28,619 nt of DNA from an uncultured delta proteobacterium (lineage in GTDB: Bacteria > RBG-13-61-14 > DRUE01), in contig CAIYYW010000234.1 of NCBI GenBank assembly GCA_903930515.1, positions 1-28,619 of the forward strand, written 5' to 3'. Both the position numbers and the translations under genes were made by a program. Every line of letters begins with the position of its first letter. Position 1 is the stretch's first letter. This document shows, piece by piece, positions 10,805-20,084 of this stretch. The notes beneath the pieces were generated by a model. The model did not search any database, was not told the origin of the DNA, and saw nothing but the letters and a program-made list of their open reading frames with translations.

Positions 10805-10882
10805 TCTATGGCGGTTCCGGACCGGGAAAGTGAAAATGGGAACCGGGGTATTTATTCCCCTGTTAGAAGGAGCAAGCGCGCG

Positions 10883-12388
10883 ATGAATTATGTGATGGGA
10901 ATTGATGTGGGCACCAGCGGATTAAAAGCGCTGGTGGTGGACGGGCAGGGCAGGGGCATAGCTTCGGCTTTGGTGGAATACGGGATGGATACCCTTAAGC
11001 CGGGATGGGCGGAGCAGGACCCGGAGCAATGGTGGGATGCCCTGGTCAAAGCGATGCGGAAACTCAAATCTACAGTCCCGGACCTGGCTCATTCCCTCTC
11101 CGGGATCGGACTCACCGGTCAGATGCACAGCTCGGTTTTCCTTGATCAAAAATTCCGGGTGATCCGGCCGGCCATCCTCTGGTGCGACCAGAGAACGGCC
11201 AAAGAATGCGAACAGCTCTATCAAAAGATCGGCTTTGACCGGCTGGTCAGGCTGACCCTGAACCGCGCCCTGACCGGCTTCACCCTTCCGAAACTGCTCT
11301 GGCTTAGGAACCGGGAGCCGGGACATTACAAAAAGACCCGGCATCTTTTGGTGTGCAAGGACTACCTCCGGTTCCGTCTGACCAATGAGCTTGCCACCGA
11401 GGTCTCGGACGCGAGCGGGACTTTGATCTTTGATGTCCGGAACCGGCGCTGGAGCGATCAGTTGATTTCGGAACTGGAGATATATCCGGGGATTCTGCCC
11501 AAATGTTATGAGTCGCCCGAAATCACCGGCGAGCTGACCAGGGAGGCCGCATCTCTGCTGGGACTGAAGCCGGGCGTCCCGGTGGTGGGCGGGGCCGGAG
11601 ACCAGGCAGCCGGCGCGGTCGGGAACGGGATTGTGGAGGAAGGGGCGGTCCTGATTTCAATCGGGACCAGCGGGGTGGTTTTTGCCGCGCATAAAAAACC
11701 GCTGATTGACAAGCAGGCCCGGCTCCATTCCTTCTGCCACGCGGTTCCGGGGCTTTGGCATTCAATGGGGGTGATGCTGAGCGCGGGCGGATCGCTCCGG
11801 TGGCTGCGGGAGGTTTTGCGGGAAGCCGACCCGAAAATGGATTACCCGGAGATGACTGCACTCGCCGAGCAAGTTCCGGCTGGAGCCGATGGTCTTTATT
11901 TCCTGCCTTATCTTACCGGCGAGCGCACCCCGCATTTTGATCCGTATGCGCGCGGGGTGTGGTTCGGTCTTTCGCTCAAACATTCGCTCGGGCATCTGGT
12001 CCGGGCGGTGATGGAAGGGGTCAGCTTCGGCCTGAAAGACTCGGTGGAGGTTATGAAGAAGAGCGGGTTCCGGATCAGTAAATTTTATCTTTCCGGCGGA
12101 GGGGCCAAAAGCCAAGCCTGGGCGCAATTGCTGGCGGATTTGCTGGAGGAGCAAATATACCGGCTGAAGGTTGATGAAGGGCCGAGCTTCGGGGCCGCGC
12201 TCCTGGCAATGGTGGGCACGGGAAGATTTAAAGAGGTAAGGGCCGCGGCCAAAGCGACCCTGAATTTGAAAGACCGCTTTGAGCCGGATCCCAAAACCGG
12301 CGAAACCTACCGGCGTCTCTATCGCAACTGGCAGACCCTGTATCCGGAATTTGCCGGGAAGTTCCGGGAATTGGGGTCAAGGCTTTAG
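10883..12388 (+). CDS. xylB: Xylulokinase
   Basis: This cytoplasmic FGGY-family kinase phosphorylates D-xylulose with ATP to give xylulose 5-phosphate for the pentose phosphate pathway. The 501-residue product is close to the E. coli enzyme in length and matches it along its full length from memory: nucleotide-fold GIDVGTSGLK (6-15), WSEQDPEQWW-like block (42-51), GQMH (79-82), RPAILWCDQR (95-104), GGAGDQAAGAVG (236-247) with catalytic-base candidate Asp240, IGTSGVVF, SFCHA, LPYLTGERTPH (341-351) and LSGGGAKS (403-410). A longer in-frame ORF begins at 10808, but AGAAGGAG (10865-10872) and the upstream promoter support ATG 10883. No xylose isomerase or xylose transporter is in the window. The nearest sugar-related gene is the MCP-XylF fusion beyond csrA. 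A closely related FGGY kinase for another ketopentose is possible but less likely. Confidence 0.93.
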   Translation: MNYVMGIDVGTSGLKALVVDGQGRGIASALVEYGMDTLKPGWAEQDPEQWWDALVKAMRKLKSTVPDLAHSLSGIGLTGQMHSSVFLDQKFRVIRPAILWCDQRTAKECEQLYQKIGFDRLVRLTLNRALTGFTLPKLLWLRNREPGHYKKTRHLLVCKDYLRFRLTNELATEVSDASGTLIFDVRNRRWSDQLISELEIYPGILPKCYESPEITGELTREAASLLGLKPGVPVVGGAGDQAAGAVGNGIVEEGAVLISIGTSGVVFAAHKKPLIDKQARLHSFCHAVPGLWHSMGVMLSAGGSLRWLREVLREADPKMDYPEMTALAEQVPAGADGLYFLPYLTGERTPHFDPYARGVWFGLSLKHSLGHLVRAVMEGVSFGLKDSVEVMKKSGFRISKFYLSGGGAKSQAWAQLLADLLEEQIYRLKVDEGPSFGAALLAMVGTGRFKEVRAAAKATLNLKDRFEPDPKTGETYRRLYRNWQTLYPEFAGKFRELGSRL

Positions 12389-12529: not shown

Positions 12530-12573
12530 TTGATAGGGAATCAACGGGCATAGTCAAGAAAGGAGCGGAAGGA
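12530..12573 (+). promoter_or_regulatory. csrA leader with GGA-loop hairpin and GGA motifs over the start: candidate CsrA autoregulatory sites
   Basis: TTGAT (12530-12534) and ATCAA (12540-12544) pair around a 5-base loop AGGGA containing GGA. Three more GGA motifs follow at 12562-12564, 12567-12569 and 12571-12573. They cover the Shine-Dalgarno AAGGAG and run into the start codon as AAGGATG, which matches the core of the known CsrA consensus (A-R-GGA-T-G). CsrA prefers GGA in short hairpin loops and often binds two or more sites across the ribosome site of its target. Shine-Dalgarno sequences contain GGA by nature, so the hairpin and the AAGGATG start are the informative parts. Confidence 0.45.
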
Positions 12574-12758
12574 TGCTGGTATTAAGCAGGAAACTGGGAG
12601 AGAAGATTGTGATTGGGAACAGCATTGTGATCACGGTTAATCGTCTGGAGTATAACCAGGTCAGCCTGGGGATCAGCGCTCCGATTGAGGTTCCGATCGT
12701 GCGGATGGAATTGCTGGATCGGGACCGGGAGAAAAACCGGGTCCATCTCGTCCGTTAA
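12573..12758 (+). CDS. csrA: Carbon storage regulator CsrA
   Basis: This 61-residue RNA-binding post-transcriptional regulator normally acts as a homodimer that binds GGA motifs near ribosome sites and controls carbon flux, motility and biofilm state. The sequence follows the family from end to end: MLVLSRKLGEKI at the N-terminus with Leu4 and Arg6, VNRLEYNQVSLGISAP in the middle, and EVPIVR with Arg44, matching the two RNA-contact regions of the E. coli protein (around Leu4 and Arg44). The length is also normal. AAGGAG at 12560-12565 precedes the ATG by seven bases. The usual flagellar partner fliW and flagellin genes are absent here. It stands alone after xylB, 184 bases downstream, and its TAA overlaps the stop of the convergent MCP-XylF gene. 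Confidence 0.97.
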   Translation: MLVLSRKLGEKIVIGNSIVITVNRLEYNQVSLGISAPIEVPIVRMELLDRDREKNRVHLVR

Positions 12759-15403
12759 GAAGGGTATAATTCTTTTTCGGAATGGAACCCGTCCGCCACG
12801 ATCACTTCCCGCATATTTTGAGCGTCCACCTGGATCGGATTGAGCAGGATGGAAGGCGCCTCGGCCTTGCCGTTATAAACCAGTTGGTCCGCGCCCGGTA
12901 TTTTCTGGCCCTTGAGCATCAGCACCAAAGCTTCCGCGGCCCGGGTGGCCTGGAGCCGGACCGGCATATAAATGGTCATGGTTTGTTCGCCCTTCACGAT
13001 CCTCTTGCAGGCGTCCAATTCCGCGTCCATCCCGGTGAGCAAAACCTTGCCGGTCAGTCCGAATTCCTTGAGCGCCTTGGCCGCTCCTCCCGCGGTGCCG
13101 TCATTGCTGGCAATGATCGCGTCCGGTTTTTTTCCCTGCGCTAAAAGTTTCTTGATGATCTGATAGGCCTGTTCCGGGGACCAGTCCGGGGTCCAGCTTT
13201 CGCCGATCAGATTGACCCGGCCGCTGCGTAAGAACGGTTCCAGGGCCGCGCGTTGCCCCTCTTTCAACCGGATGGAATTGCTGTCCACTTCCGAACCCAG
13301 GAGCAGGAAATAATTTCCTTCGGGCTTCCGCTTCAGGCAATACTCCGCCATCCATCTCCCGATCTGCACCCCGTCATACGCCACGAATAAATCCAGATCG
13401 CAGTTCCGGATCAGGCGGTCATAAGCGATCACCCGGACCCCTGACCGATGCGCCAGGTCCACCACATGCGCCATCCGTTCCGCGTCCACCGCCACCACGA
13501 TCAAGCCCTGCGCGCCCTGTCCGAGTATTTGCTCCGCTTGGCTCACCTGCAGTTCCGCGTCCCCGGCTGCCACGCTTTCCAAAACCTGCGCCCCCAGCCG
13601 CTCGCAGCGCTTGAGCAGGATTTCCCGCTCCCGCCTCCATCGCTCCTCTCGGAGGTTGTCGAGCACGACTCCGACTTTCATCCGCTTCTTGAGTTCGGGC
13701 AGTTCAAACCCTTTAAGCTCTCCGTCCAGGATCAGCGACTGGTCCAGCACGCTCACCGCGGTGTTCTCCACATTTTCCACACTGATCGCGATCAGATCGG
13801 AGGCCCTCCGCACCAGGCCCATCGCCTTGAGGATCTCGGAACTGGCCCGGCTTTGATCCTCGGTGGCCTGCCGGATCACTTCCACCGACGCGGTCAACTC
13901 CTCCATCGCCTTGGATACCCGCTTACTGCTTTCGGCCTGCTCTTTGGACGCGATCTTGACCCGCTCGGTCAGGTCCCGCATTTTTTCCGCGCGCTCCTTT
14001 AGGTATGTGCTGGAGTCTTCCTGCTCCCGCATCGCGGTCTTGATCAACTGGGTCCGCTCGTCAACTTCCGAGCTGGATTGATAGACCTGGTTGGCCAGGC
14101 CCGCCTGCTCCTCGGTGGCTTGCGCGATCTGGCCGGAAAACTTGGCCGCGTTTTGCATCCCTTCCAGAACCTCGTCAATCGCCCCCCGTGCTTCGCTGCT
14201 CAGGCGGGTTCCCTCCCGAGCCCGCTCGTAGGCCTGGGAAATGGCGTTCTGGGAGGACTTCACCGCTTTTCGGGTCCGGTTGATCAGGCCCTCAATCTGC
14301 TTGGTGCTCTCGCTGGTCCTTCTCGCCAAATCCTTGATCTCGGTCGCCACCACCATAAATCCGCGGCCATGCTCTCCGGCCTTGGCCGCCATAATGGAAG
14401 CGTTGAGGGAGAGGAGATGGGTCTCGGAGGCGATGTCATTGATCACGGTGATGATCTCGCCGATGGCCTGAGATTGTTCCGTCAACTGCTCCATCATCTT
14501 GAAGGACTGGTTCACCGCGGACTCAATCTTCTCCATCCCTTTGGCCCAGCCGCTGATCAATTCCGAGGCCTTGGCGCCTTGCTCCCGCGCCGAGGCGGAG
14601 ATCCGGGCGGATTCCTCGGCCCGCTTCCGGTTCTGCTGGGTGGCCTGGTCAATCTCGCGCATGGAACTGGAGGTCTGAGTGGACGCGCTGGACAGGCTCT
14701 CGGTGGCCTGGGCCACGCTCTTGGTGTTTGCGGCCATCTCGGAAATGGCGGTGACCAAATCCCGGACCAACCCGGCCAGCTCGTTGGTCATCTCGGACAC
14801 CATCTGGATGTTGGCCGTCATCTGGTAGCCGGCGCTTGAGGTTTCCTGGCTCAATCCCTTCAACTCGTCCACATTGTTATGAATCTGGTGGATCCCCTGG
14901 TCAATCCGGGAAAGGCTCTCCCCGGTCTCTTCCACCGAGGCCACCTGGGTCGCGGAGCCGCGCGCCAGCTTCTCGCTCTGGTCAATTATTTCGCGGGAAA
15001 GGCTGCGGAGGTCGTCGGTCAGACGGTGGGTCTGGCCCAGCACACTGGTGATATTATTGTGGAATTCTTCCAGCGGAACCTCCAGCCGGGTCCGCCCTTT
15101 TTCCATGGTAAAATTCTTCGGGTCCTGGTTAAGCCGGCCCTGGCTCGCGAGCCGGATATATTTCTCCAACTGGTTCCCGCTCCGCTGATCCAGCAAATAT
15201 ACTCCTCCCGCCACACTATCAACCACGCTGATCAGGATCTGGATCAGGAGGGAAAGCAACAGACTCAGCCCGGCCAGTCCGGCCAGGCTTTTGCCGGTAA
15301 AAGCGATCCCGGCGACCTTGAACAAAATCAGGCCGGAGCCGAATAATAATAATGCCACCAAGGCCAGGAGCGCCAGGACTGTTTTCAGCTTGACCCCGTT
15401 CAT
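12755..15403 (-). CDS. Chemoreceptor-like signalling protein fused to a C-terminal XylF-type sugar-binding domain
   Basis: This 882-residue protein joins two modules normally found in separate proteins. Two membrane helices (about 8-33 and 39-61) are separated by a very short loop, so there is no periplasmic sensor. A HAMP-like stretch (about 75-130) and a long helical methyl-accepting domain (about 140-560) follow, with hairpin tip NDIASETHLLSLNASI and AGEHGRGF (322-349). Residues about 575-876 align with E. coli XylF nearly from end to end: LREERW, AYDRLI (660-665), GNYFLLLGSEVD, ASNDGTAGG (765-773), GMDAEL, QTMTIY and DGFHSEKEL. No hydrophobic segment separates the modules, and Lys5/Lys7 before TM1 suggest both ends are inside, so the sugar domain should be cytoplasmic. 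Most pocket motifs persist, but the Lys of the XylF YKP motif is Met813. GGGAG directly precedes the ATG. No CheA or CheW gene is nearby. Confidence 0.9.
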   Translation of the reverse strand: MNGVKLKTVLALLALVALLLFGSGLILFKVAGIAFTGKSLAGLAGLSLLLSLLIQILISVVDSVAGGVYLLDQRSGNQLEKYIRLASQGRLNQDPKNFTMEKGRTRLEVPLEEFHNNITSVLGQTHRLTDDLRSLSREIIDQSEKLARGSATQVASVEETGESLSRIDQGIHQIHNNVDELKGLSQETSSAGYQMTANIQMVSEMTNELAGLVRDLVTAISEMAANTKSVAQATESLSSASTQTSSSMREIDQATQQNRKRAEESARISASAREQGAKASELISGWAKGMEKIESAVNQSFKMMEQLTEQSQAIGEIITVINDIASETHLLSLNASIMAAKAGEHGRGFMVVATEIKDLARRTSESTKQIEGLINRTRKAVKSSQNAISQAYERAREGTRLSSEARGAIDEVLEGMQNAAKFSGQIAQATEEQAGLANQVYQSSSEVDERTQLIKTAMREQEDSSTYLKERAEKMRDLTERVKIASKEQAESSKRVSKAMEELTASVEVIRQATEDQSRASSEILKAMGLVRRASDLIAISVENVENTAVSVLDQSLILDGELKGFELPELKKRMKVGVVLDNLREERWRREREILLKRCERLGAQVLESVAAGDAELQVSQAEQILGQGAQGLIVVAVDAERMAHVVDLAHRSGVRVIAYDRLIRNCDLDLFVAYDGVQIGRWMAEYCLKRKPEGNYFLLLGSEVDSNSIRLKEGQRAALEPFLRSGRVNLIGESWTPDWSPEQAYQIIKKLLAQGKKPDAIIASNDGTAGGAAKALKEFGLTGKVLLTGMDAELDACKRIVKGEQTMTIYMPVRLQATRAAEALVLMLKGQKIPGADQLVYNGKAEAPSILLNPIQVDAQNMREVIVADGFHSEKELYPS

Positions 15404-15667: not shown

Positions 15668-17095
15668 TTAGACCACCGCCTCGGGCCAGGTCAGGTGGAT
15701 CATATCCAAAACCACCGCGGGCCAGTTGAAGGGATGGGCGTTTTTGCCCTGGCCGGACCGGCAGTCGTAGTATTCCCAGAAGCCCTGGTTGCGGATCATC
15801 TTGGCGGTGCGGCGGGTGAGTTCTTTGGCGAGGTCGGTGTAGCCGTGGGTAAGCAATCCCTCGCAGATCATCCAGTTCATATTGGTCCAGATGCAGTAGC
15901 CGCGCCAGAGCAGCAGGTCCTCAAAATAAATCTTTTCCCGGTCCAACTCGTCCTTGGCGTTGAAGCTGACCAGGTAGGGGAGCCAGAACTCGGCCGGGTT
16001 ATGGAAGTGCTCTTTCACGAGCCGCTCGGCCTGGTCTTGGGGAAGGTGCTCGCTCATCAGCGGGAGCAGGGAGGCGCAGGTGGTTCGCTTGGCGAATTTC
16101 GGGTCCTTAAGGTCATAGCGGGACCAGAACAATCCGGCCTGGTCGTCCCAATGTATTTTCCGGATGGCCTCGGTCATCTGTTTCGCCTGGTTCCGGTATT
16201 GCTCGGCCTTTGCTTTGTCGCCCGCCTGTTCAAACATCCTGCTCACCGCGGTCACCGCCCGGATGGTGATGGCGATCACATTCATATCCTCCACGATGAA
16301 CCAGTTGTCAGCCGCGATTTTTTTAAGGTCGTATCCGAGTTCCTTCTGGCGGTCAAACATTTTTGGATAAAGGAACATCCGATAGGGTCCTCCCAGGGGC
16401 GTGCGGTAGTCCAGATCCAGGATCTGGTCATAAGCCGGGGAGGAATCGGTTCCGGATTCCCAGGGATGGATGATGCTGGGAAGGCCGGTCTGGAACAGGT
16501 CGCGCGTGACCGTGAGATACTGGATTGCCCTTTCAAAACGAGGGAGCAGGCGCGTGAGCCAGGCGCGGTCTTTGGTGTTCTGATAAATTTTTTCCGCGGA
16601 AATGATGAAGCTGGGCGGGTCCACCTGGACCGAGACCCCGTCCTGGAACTGGCTTTGGCTCAACTGGTTGCCGAGCTTGTGCCGCAAGTCCTGGTTCTGC
16701 TTGATCTCCTTGAACTGGACCTCGTGGGGCACCCTTCCGTCCGGCCTTTGCTGGAGCATCAAGAACTCCACTTCCGAGGCCGCCATCTTCGGGTCAATCC
16801 GGTTCATGCCGATGGTATGCCATCCCGAGTCCCAGGCAAAGAGGGAGGGATAGGTCCCAAGCGCCGGCATATGGAAATAGTATCCCTGAAGCTCCGTCCG
16901 GTTGCCCGCGAAAGTTTTCTCCGCCTCACTCTTGAGCGCCTGGTAATCCTCCTTGGTCACCGGGCCGTCCGGGATCGGATACGCCGGCGCCGGCTTTTTC
17001 GCGTGGGCGCGCGAAGAAATTTGAGAGCCGAGCGCGATTGCCCCGCTCATTCCGGCAACCTTTAAAAAATTCCTCCGATCAAAATCCCCTTTCAT
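15668..17095 (-). CDS. Tat-exported glycoside hydrolase, trehalase/GH63 (MGH1-like) type
   Basis: This 475-residue protein starts with a twin-arginine signal: DRRNFLKVAG (6-15) with Arg7-Arg8, a hydrophobic stretch and AHA at 30-32, so it should be exported folded. The mature part resembles the (alpha/alpha)6-barrel family of trehalases, GH63 enzymes and mannosylglycerate hydrolases: LFAWDSGWHTIGM (85-97), DGRVPHE (119-125), WESGTDSSPAY (212-222) with acid candidate Asp217, WTNMNW (403-408) and FWEYYDCRSG (439-448) with base candidate Glu441. The frame is open upstream to 17488, but AAAGGAGG (17107-17100) favours the ATG at 17095, or the adjacent ATG at 17098, and only these place the Tat motif at the N-terminus. 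It follows plsY by 17 bases. The substrate is likely an alpha-linked glucoside or mannoside, not determined. Confidence 0.78.
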   Translation of the reverse strand: MKGDFDRRNFLKVAGMSGAIALGSQISSRAHAKKPAPAYPIPDGPVTKEDYQALKSEAEKTFAGNRTELQGYYFHMPALGTYPSLFAWDSGWHTIGMNRIDPKMAASEVEFLMLQQRPDGRVPHEVQFKEIKQNQDLRHKLGNQLSQSQFQDGVSVQVDPPSFIISAEKIYQNTKDRAWLTRLLPRFERAIQYLTVTRDLFQTGLPSIIHPWESGTDSSPAYDQILDLDYRTPLGGPYRMFLYPKMFDRQKELGYDLKKIAADNWFIVEDMNVIAITIRAVTAVSRMFEQAGDKAKAEQYRNQAKQMTEAIRKIHWDDQAGLFWSRYDLKDPKFAKRTTCASLLPLMSEHLPQDQAERLVKEHFHNPAEFWLPYLVSFNAKDELDREKIYFEDLLLWRGYCIWTNMNWMICEGLLTHGYTDLAKELTRRTAKMIRNQGFWEYYDCRSGQGKNAHPFNWPAVVLDMIHLTWPEAVV

Positions 17096-17112
17096 CATTC
17101 CTCCTTTTTCAT

Positions 17113-17718
17113 TTATCCAATTTTTTGAATCGGTTTTTCCTTTCCCTGCAACAGCCGGGCGATGTTGGAATAATGCGACAGAATCACCGCGATTACAATC
17201 GCAAGCGAGGTATATAATATCCATCGGTCCTGTTTCAACCCCAGGATCAGGATCGGGAGCGAGATTGCGGCGATGATGCTGGCCAGGCCCGCGATCCGGG
17301 ATACGGCCAAAATCAAAATCCAGATTCCCAGGCAGAGCAAGGCCGGGATGGGCGAGATCGCAACCATTGCCCCGAACCCGGTGGCAACCCCTTTGCCGCC
17401 TTTGAATTTCAGGTAGGGCGAAAAAATATGACCGAGGACCGCGACCACCGCGGCGACTCCGGTCAAGATCCCTTTCCCAAACAGCCACTCAAAGATCAGG
17501 ACCGGCGCCGCTCCCTTTAAGCCGTCCAAGCCGAACGCCAGGGCCGCGTATCTCCATCCCAGGACGCGATAGACATTGGTCGCGCCGATATTTCCGGAGC
17601 CGATTTCTCGGAGGTCCTTTTTTTTCAGTCTGGCCAGGATCATTCCGAAGGGAATTGCCCCGATCAGGAAAAAGATCAGATAGATCAAAACCAGTTTGAT
17701 CAGGTTAAGGGTCTGCAT
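17113..17718 (-). CDS. plsY: Acyl-phosphate:glycerol-3-phosphate acyltransferase PlsY
   Basis: This inner-membrane enzyme transfers an acyl group from acyl-phosphate to glycerol 3-phosphate, the first step of phospholipid synthesis in most bacteria. The 201-residue product has the expected length, several membrane helices, and all three conserved loops: GSGNIGATN (40-48), GHIFSPYLKFKGGKGVAT (96-113) and SHYSNIARLLQGKE (181-194). An in-frame extension to 17790 adds 24 residues overlapping the upstream gene; the ATG at 17718 gives the normal N-terminus. The start lies eight bases after the stop of the upstream glycosidase with only a weak ribosome site, suggesting translational coupling. A housekeeping lipid gene between two exported glycosidases is unusual. 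PlsX, its usual partner that makes acyl-phosphate, is not in the window. Confidence 0.95.
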   Translation of the reverse strand: MQTLNLIKLVLIYLIFFLIGAIPFGMILARLKKKDLREIGSGNIGATNVYRVLGWRYAALAFGLDGLKGAAPVLIFEWLFGKGILTGVAAVVAVLGHIFSPYLKFKGGKGVATGFGAMVAISPIPALLCLGIWILILAVSRIAGLASIIAAISLPILILGLKQDRWILYTSLAIVIAVILSHYSNIARLLQGKEKPIQKIG

Positions 17719-17726
17719 TTTATCGG

Positions 17727-20084
17727 CTAATCCAGTTTGAGCTGATACTCCCGCTCCAAATCCATCTGGTAGGGCTTGCCCTTGATCCATACGGTAAAAG
17801 ATTTTTCCGCAATTTCCTGATACGGGTCGGTCAGCTTGACCTTGAGGGATTTGGACTTCAGCAAAGGCAATCCGTCCGCGCTTTGCATCTCCATTCTGGG
17901 GACCGTCATCCCGGCCCGGATCCGGTAGAAATCAGAACGGGTCTGAAAATCCCGGGCCTCGCGGAGGTATCCCTGGATTTGGGAGTCACGGTCAAAAAGG
18001 AACCGCTGATGCTGATACCGCTCCAGGATCATCTCCAGGGTGAAGGCCGAGCTCCAGCCGAACTGCGCCGAGGCATAGCCGCTGGTGGGCTTCTGGTTCA
18101 GGTAACTGCCGGTAATGGGATCGTAGGTTTCAAAGATGCCTTTGATCCCGCCCTGGTCCGCCATCATTGAAAGGAGACGCTCGCGCAATTCCGCGGCTTC
18201 TTTCTCGTAACCGAATTTGAACAGGGTTTCCAGGGCCGAGTATGCCGAAAACATCCAGATCCTGCTTTTCCATCCGGGTATGGAATTATCAAAATATTTA
18301 TCATTATATGCAACCACCGGAATCGGGTATTTGCCGAAAAATTCCTCCGGGTTCAACAGATGCTTTTCAATCACGGTCCGAGCCTTTTGCTCGTCCAGGG
18401 TGGCCCCGGCAAAGGCCGGGAACCAGATCGCGGGCGTGAGCACCTTGAAATGGGTGTAATTCCCTTTCCTGCCGTAGGTGTCCAGCCAGCAGCCGCATTC
18501 CGGGTCCCACAAAATCTCGTCGGTCTTCGCGGCAAGCGTCTGGGCCTCGGCGCGCCAATTCTTCGCCTCCTCGGGCTTTCCCAAATCGTCCGCCCATTTC
18601 GCCATCGCGTCATAATAAAAATACACCCAGGGGTTCAGGTCCGCGTTGTCCAAAGGCTTGGTCTTGAACGCGATCACCTCGCCCAGCGATCCGACATAGC
18701 TGATGAAAGGTCCCGGAGCGACATAGTTCATCCGCGGCGAATTGTCCCAGCCGCCCTCGTCCTGGCTCAGGTATTCAAACAGGCCGTTATGGTTCTGGTC
18801 CCGCGCCCGTTTCCACCAATCCAGATAAAGCTTCCCCTTCTCATACATTTCCTTTTCAAACGGCATAGACCCCGGGTCGTCGGGGTAGCGCTCCAGGATC
18901 TGAACCCCGCTGTACCCGAACACCGGCGACTGCGAATGCGGCGTGATCGGTTTGGCCCGCTCATCCTCCATATGCGCGAGGTAGCCGTCACTGCGCTGCG
19001 CCTGGAAAATCGCCTGGATCACCTCCCTCGCCATCTCCGGCTTGAACTCGGAATAGCCGAGCGCCTCAAAGCCCGAGTCCCAGAGCCAGAACCAGTTGTA
19101 ATGGACCTTGGTCGGGACGCAGCCCCAGTATTTCATATTCCCGCGCGGGGCATACAAGGCGTTGTCCAGAGCGGTCGCGGCCATCAGGTAAAGCTCAAGA
19201 TATTCCGGCTTGCCCGAATTCAAATGAGGCCGGGGCAGGGAATTGAAAAATCGGTCGGTCTCGGAATTCATTTTTTCCCAGGCCGACTGCGCGGACTGAA
19301 AATTTTTCCCGGCTTCCGAAACCAGGGCCTGCGCCTGCTTGGCGCTGTCCGGCTCGTATCCGAAAATATAGCTGAACCATTTGCTCTCCCCAGGAGCCAG
19401 CTCCAGCTCTTTTCCGCTCCCCTCAAAACCGCCCCGAATCGGCGCGAACGAAATTTCACCCGAATTATTCCCGGCCAGCGCGAGATAGTTTTTCCCGACC
19501 GTGGTGGTGGGTTGGACACTAAATTTGAACACCGCGGGATCAGCCGGGCTTGATTTTTGGAAGGAAAAACTTTTGCCCTTTTTAGCCAGGCTCAAGATCG
19601 GGGCAAGCCTGAGGTCTTTCCCGGATTTATTCTCCACCTTGACGCTGATCACATATTGGTCCAATCCCAGGAAATGAACATAAGCGAGCGCGGAAAAATC
19701 CTTGAACTCCGCCTGCTCCTGCCAGCCGTAATATGCGAATTGAATCTTGCGCCGATCGGCCTGGTCAAGTCGCTCCCCGTTTTCCAGAAAAGCGATTGAG
19801 CTGACCATAAATAATCCGGTGCGGGAATAGTCCAGCACATTCTTGCCGGTGGCGCAGGCGAAATGAAGCACCCCGGCGAATTCTTTCTTCTCCGCCTCCG
19901 CCTTCAGCCCGAGATGACTTCCATACGGACTTAACGGGCCGCCGTTGTCGCGGAAGGCCTCGGGGAATTGGCTGATATAAGTCGGAGACCCGGAAAAACT
20001 AACGCCCGGAGTCAATGACAGTCCCTGCCCGAAAGCCGAACCCGCGGCCAGGAACGCTATTAAATACACCATCACCCGCTTCAT
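17727..20084 (-). CDS. Sec-exported glycoside hydrolase, GH63-like (YgjK type)
   Basis: This 785-residue protein starts with a Sec signal peptide (about 1-19, ending SAFG). An N-terminal beta-sandwich-like region (about 25-250) is followed by an (alpha/alpha)6 catalytic region (about 290-690) and a short C-terminal beta segment (about 715-785). Motifs of the GH63/trehalase group are clear: FWLWDSGFEALGYSEF (332-347), RSDGYLAHME, GGWDNSPRM (444-452) with acid candidate Asp447, GWKSRIWMF, and IFETYDPITG (650-659) with base candidate Glu652, followed by FGWSSAF. Length and layout resemble the E. coli periplasmic alpha-glucosidase YgjK. AAAAGGGGG (20100-20092) seven bases upstream supports the ATG at 20084. 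It is first in a probable three-gene operon with plsY and the smaller Tat-exported relative. An alpha-glucosidase on short oligosaccharides is the best guess. Confidence 0.85.
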   Translation of the reverse strand: MKRVMVYLIAFLAAGSAFGQGLSLTPGVSFSGSPTYISQFPEAFRDNGGPLSPYGSHLGLKAEAEKKEFAGVLHFACATGKNVLDYSRTGLFMVSSIAFLENGERLDQADRRKIQFAYYGWQEQAEFKDFSALAYVHFLGLDQYVISVKVENKSGKDLRLAPILSLAKKGKSFSFQKSSPADPAVFKFSVQPTTTVGKNYLALAGNNSGEISFAPIRGGFEGSGKELELAPGESKWFSYIFGYEPDSAKQAQALVSEAGKNFQSAQSAWEKMNSETDRFFNSLPRPHLNSGKPEYLELYLMAATALDNALYAPRGNMKYWGCVPTKVHYNWFWLWDSGFEALGYSEFKPEMAREVIQAIFQAQRSDGYLAHMEDERAKPITPHSQSPVFGYSGVQILERYPDDPGSMPFEKEMYEKGKLYLDWWKRARDQNHNGLFEYLSQDEGGWDNSPRMNYVAPGPFISYVGSLGEVIAFKTKPLDNADLNPWVYFYYDAMAKWADDLGKPEEAKNWRAEAQTLAAKTDEILWDPECGCWLDTYGRKGNYTHFKVLTPAIWFPAFAGATLDEQKARTVIEKHLLNPEEFFGKYPIPVVAYNDKYFDNSIPGWKSRIWMFSAYSALETLFKFGYEKEAAELRERLLSMMADQGGIKGIFETYDPITGSYLNQKPTSGYASAQFGWSSAFTLEMILERYQHQRFLFDRDSQIQGYLREARDFQTRSDFYRIRAGMTVPRMEMQSADGLPLLKSKSLKVKLTDPYQEIAEKSFTVWIKGKPYQMDLEREYQLKLD

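Follow-up and report, generated by a model that had tools for sequence, protein, structure and literature searches.

The window, the whole 28,619-nucleotide stretch of DNA analyzed here, carries a gene for a chemoreceptor with a XylF-type sugar-binding domain at its C terminus. The receptor gene (positions 12755 to 15403, minus strand, stop codon included) encodes 882 amino acids in a frame that starts with ATG, runs without interruption, and has no in-frame start further upstream. Convergent with it is a xylulokinase gene of the FGGY family (xylB, 10808 to 12388, plus strand), whose product scores 576 bits against TIGR01312 (cut-off, 380). Between the two lies csrA (61 amino acids; 12573 to 12758, plus strand), whose 3′ end overlaps the 3′ end of the receptor gene. 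Upstream of the receptor are two MGH1-like glycoside hydrolase genes (15668 to 17488 and 17727 to 20084); the first open reading frame has probably been called too long, and a twin-arginine signal begins close to residue 130 of that call.

The initial annotation described the receptor as a chemoreceptor fused to a sugar-binding domain, in the order membrane, signaling hairpin, sugar domain. Pfam matches and a predicted model bear out both the fusion and the order: within one open frame, MCPsignal is found at residues 293 to 449 (E value, 1.8e-39; 135.8 bits against a curated cut-off of 34.6) and Peripla_BP_4 at residues 577 to 834 (E value, 2.9e-47, far above the cut-off). The model has low confidence in the hairpin and membrane part.

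The same protein occurs in a second species, from one other genome of the receptor's genus (record CAIUDS010000088.1, entered as a sediment-derived uncultured delta proteobacterium). Domain order is the same, and 881 of the 882 residues align, with one gap and 75% identity. In this second species, xylB and the receptor are directly convergent, with no csrA between them, and xylB runs off the contig, with its remaining half at the end of another contig. The genes on the other flank of the receptor differ between the two species. The linkage of XylB and receptor is known from these two related species only. The phylum's third genome has XylB, no fusion, and only free XylF; its xylB ortholog (locus L124, 2412 to 3956; 63% identity) lies in an unrelated neighborhood with no receptor.

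Membrane topology

In both species, membrane-grade hydrophobic windows occur only within residues 1 to 72, where hydropathy gives two peaks. The first membrane helix spans approximately residues 8 to 31 (15311 to 15382, minus strand; residues 6 to 32 in the model) and the second approximately residues 38 to 62 (15218 to 15292, minus strand; residues 37 to 64 in the model). Only a few residues separate them, as had been claimed, which argues that the receptor has no periplasmic sensor domain. The N terminus is basic (K5 and K7), as is the stretch after the second helix, and the N terminus is predicted to lie inside. Next comes a short linker at the place of a HAMP domain (residues 65 to 117; 15053 to 15211, minus strand), modeled with low confidence; its predicted beta-alpha-beta-beta pattern is weak, and the receptor has no Pfam HAMP match.

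By Kyte-Doolittle hydropathy, no third membrane segment follows residue 72 (the strongest later window reaches 1.24). Since the crossings are even in number, the hairpin is necessarily inside, and no further hydrophobic segment follows, the sugar domain should be cytoplasmic, a topology read from hydropathy. This agrees with the cytoplasmic placement in the initial annotation; a periplasmic sugar domain, which would have undone it, is at odds with the lack of any hydrophobic segment between hairpin and sugar domain. Domain order and hydropathy together put the sensor after the hairpin and on the same side of the membrane, as in chemoreceptors with C-terminal ligand-binding domains.

Signaling hairpin, tip, and possible Che partners

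Profile match and alignment place the signaling hairpin at residues 119 to 566 (13706 to 15049, minus strand), with its turn at about residues 342/343 and arms of about 32 heptads each way. Long receptors from other phyla can be aligned to its core with no gap. A 64H class of methyl-accepting chemotaxis proteins (MCPs) has been named in the literature (PMC6943060; PMC8235581), and the hairpin fits this class by length and gapless core alignment, the class profile not being part of the assignment. The long receptors compared stop at the hairpin, about where the sugar domain starts here (approximately residue 566), whereas the fusion continues into that domain. Three other long receptors of the same genome (L002 to L004) likewise all end at the hairpin and lack a C-terminal sugar domain. 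Where the canonical tip reads IEAARAGE, long receptors of several phyla have IIAAQAGE or a closely similar sequence (loci L002 to L004, L016, L017, L019, L020, L022, L023, and L025 to L028).

The tip of the fusion (residues 329 to 354 by alignment; 14342 to 14419, minus strand) is unusual. The consensus of 13 long receptors is N, I, and Q at positions 329, 338, and 341 and D or E at 354, whereas the fusion has H329, M338, K341, and T354. In Tsr, the first three of these positions are N, E, and R; we take the Tsr trimer-contact positions E385 and R388 to correspond to 338 and 341, where the fusion has Met and Lys. The tip therefore lacks some of the conserved residues through which trimers form and CheA/CheW is contacted. 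The tip departs from both Tsr and the long class, yet it is nearly identical (92%) in the two species. One strict-pattern methylation site, a match by sequence pattern alone, is found at residues 456 to 465 in both.

Which signaling proteins could such a tip address? Several CheA/CheW sets are present in the receptor's genome, and on one contig the che set is accompanied by a receptor with a canonical tip. Another contig (C77, 1 to 9570) carries genes for CheA, an AAA ATPase, two CheW proteins, a zinc-ribbon/receiver protein, a HEAT-CheR protein, CheB, a GAF protein, and CheY, with no receptor gene anywhere on its 9.6 kb. A che cluster of similar make-up, also with no receptor gene, occurs on contig C126 of genome G002 from the same phylum, and CheW matches in an order similar to the C77 cluster are found in a further genome of the phylum (G001). 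The C77-type cluster is perhaps the partner of the fusion, a guess made from the absence of a receptor gene of its own.

Coupling of the fusion to CheA and CheW is uncertain because the tip departs from both the canonical and the long-class consensus, with M338 and K341 at the places of E385 and R388. The receptor might instead work without CheA/CheW, its altered tip using another partner or only organizing other receptors. A tip unlike that of Tsr and the long class at H329, M338, K341, and T354, and still so similar across species, speaks for this alternative. However, MCPsignal still matches at 1.8e-39, and the genome has che systems, one of them without a receptor. We consider this alternative fairly unlikely, and it is compatible with the sensing part of the explanation that we favor below.

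Sugar domain and putative ligand

The XylF-type domain (residues 573 to 880; 12764 to 13687, minus strand) is identified by Pfam, NCBIfam, structure comparison, and the predicted model. The near end-to-end XylF match proposed at the outset holds: the NCBIfam xylF profile TIGR02634 matches residues 577 to 879 over positions 1 to 302 of 302 (293 bits), and the closest solved relative, E. coli XylF (3m9w), aligns end to end with residues 573 to 880 (E value, 2e-80). The domain is modeled with pLDDT mostly above 90 and superposes on the closed, liganded XylF 3ma0 with a TM score of 0.95. Its scores are below the XylF equivalog cut-offs (293 versus 390 bits for TIGR02634; 304 versus 504 bits for PRK10355), as are those of many free XylF-like proteins.

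We compared the pocket, in E. coli XylF numbering, in an alignment of the fusion with 21 free XylFs and the E. coli ribose-binding protein, for which we assume a sequence and pocket residues whose numbering is self-consistent. At 28 positions the free XylFs are at least 95% invariant, and the fusions of both species keep 24 of these. The kept pocket positions are R16, D90, R91, W169, N196, and D222 (R588, D662, R663, W741, N767, and D793 in the receptor). Changed in both fusions are Y101F, Q113M, Q221M, and K242M. The last two are the pocket residues Met792 (13028 to 13030, minus strand; position of ribose-binding protein F214) and Met813 (12965 to 12967, minus strand; position of ribose-binding protein Q235). 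K242 is present in 30 of 30 free XylFs sampled and Q221 in 29, counting the 21 in the alignment and nine more that follow the same rule, a tenth being from a genome already counted; neither fusion has the full set of XylF pocket residues, which includes both. The statement that most pocket motifs are kept is therefore right for ERW (587 to 589), YDR (661 to 663), SND (766 to 768), and D793, but not for Q221 and K242, which are Met792 and Met813. The pocket resembles that of a pentose binder in its charged and aromatic core, minus two polar contacts, and what the receptor senses inside the cell is probably not plain xylose.

It is tempting to propose that the domain binds D-xylose as a free XylF does, reporting internal or newly imported xylose. 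XylF is the closest family, R16, W17, D90, R91, W169, N196, and D222 are retained, and a xylulokinase gene adjoins. However, plain D-xylose is made less likely by the replacement of both Q221 and K242 with Met in the two species; the domain scores under the XylF equivalog cut-off, and none of the phylum's three genomes, which are 87 to 95% complete, gave a xylose isomerase match above the cut-off. We regard D-xylose as an unlikely ligand. The altered pocket, the lack of a xylose isomerase match, and the convergent xylB together make a pentulose, a pentitol, or another pentose-like metabolite a better guess. The earlier suggestion that the receptor reads an internal pentose pool thus gains some support from the convergent xylB in both species, while its xylose version is weakened by Q221M and K242M and by the missing isomerase.

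The same two substitutions could mean lost binding instead of a changed ligand. The domain would then act as a structural element or as a platform for protein contacts, docking XylB, say, or some other protein, and the further loss of XylF-invariant residues (Y101F and Q113M) is in keeping with this. Against this, both species retain the remaining conserved pocket positions, and a dN/dS of about 0.15 indicates purifying selection on the domain. A module that binds no ligand therefore seems quite improbable to us.

Conservation and rarity of the fusion

Between the two orthologs, dN/dS is about 0.32 in the membrane part, 0.07 in the tip, and 0.16 in the returning arm of the hairpin, next to the value for the sugar domain given above. 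The fusion of two separate genes by a sequencing or assembly error, which the initial annotation had named as one of the ways in which it could be wrong, has nothing in its favor and is for all practical purposes ruled out, because an independent genome of the same genus carries the whole 882-amino-acid frame with the identical join at 75% identity and with dN/dS well below 1.

Outside the genus, we found no MCP-XylF fusion in 386 genomes or in a phylum of 84 genomes; the more than 80 other XylF genes in these sets are all free. In the search with the XylF family across the 386 genomes (327 genera), all other matches lie in frames of about 340 to 560 amino acids, and a second search, of the 84-genome phylum, gave 61 XylF matches in frames of 349 to 472 amino acids. 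A plasmid collection had no such fusion among the best matches listed. In a tree of XylF domains, the two fusions group together as a single clade at the end of a long branch; the free XylFs of the same phylum are not its sister group, and its deeper placement is weakly supported. Free XylF genes of the phylum's other two genomes (L109, 3323 to 4564; L110, 8745 to 9890) encode signal or lipoprotein-like N termini, and no XylG or XylH transport genes adjoin them in the stretches read.

Proposed mechanism and relation to known systems

Our favored explanation, which we hold to be somewhat probable, is a membrane-anchored, inside-facing receptor in which the XylF-derived domain at the base of the hairpin reads a pentose-like metabolite and alters the output of the tip. 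The two N-terminal helices would anchor a dimeric, long-class (64-heptad-like) hairpin in the inner membrane, with no sensor facing the periplasm. The XylF-derived clamshell would sit in the cytoplasm at the base of the bundle, close to the membrane, since it follows directly behind the end of the returning helix. Binding of a small pentose-like metabolite might close the clamshell and pull or twist the C-terminal helix; this movement would change the packing of the bundle and hence the output at the tip. The ligand may be a pentulose or related sugar used by the neighboring XylB, rather than D-xylose, and the output may pass through a CheA/CheW set, perhaps the che cluster of the phylum that lacks a receptor gene.

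Chemoreceptors that carry their ligand-binding domain at the C terminus are known, though still poorly characterized; at least 17 domain types are reported, CZB being by far the most frequent (PMC7390727). The claim that no standard system has this order is therefore not supported. Those receptors likewise have a hairpin followed by a sensor, both cytoplasmic; the difference is that their commonest type is the zinc-binding CZB, whereas the fusion has a XylF-type domain. In the literature searched, we found no description of an MCPsignal plus Peripla_BP_4 architecture, or of a chemoreceptor with a XylF-type domain as its C-terminal sensor, the latter with the types reported in PMC7390727 taken as a set rather than individually. 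What looks new is the XylF-type domain in the place of the C-terminal sensor.

There is ample precedent for binding proteins that act on membrane receptors from the outside to pass on a signal (PMC6321045). XylFII-LytS resembles the fusion in using a xylose-binding-type protein for signaling, but in that system the binding protein sits on the outer side of the cell membrane and associates with a kinase that is a separate protein (PMC6321045). The fusion's domain shares with E. coli XylF (3m9w, 3ma0) the whole fold and most pocket residues; E. coli XylF is free and periplasmic, whereas the domain here stands behind a hairpin without a signal peptide of its own and has Met, Met, Met, and Phe in place of Q221, K242, Q113, and Y101.

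More broadly, a long chemoreceptor may have taken over a sugar-binding protein of ABC transport, bringing it into the cytoplasm as its C-terminal sensor; with pocket and tip retuned, the receptor would report on a pentose-type metabolite inside the cell to a chemosensory system dedicated to it. That this amounts to an inside-facing, metabolite-reading kind of receptor not previously described is a tentative proposal, which we think possible but short of probable. If it is true, a periplasmic-type clamshell at the base of a hairpin would offer a clear and testable example of a chemoreceptor controlled from its C terminus, and transport binding proteins could be redeployed as internal sensors without the DNA-binding part of LacI-type proteins. 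Metabolism-dependent taxis has long been known, but few chemoreceptors are known to carry a cytoplasmic sensor that directly reads a named carbon metabolite. Repressors of the LacI/GalR family read internal sugar with a C-terminal domain that resembles binding proteins. Their output, however, is DNA binding, and the sugar domain of the fusion is far more similar to XylF.
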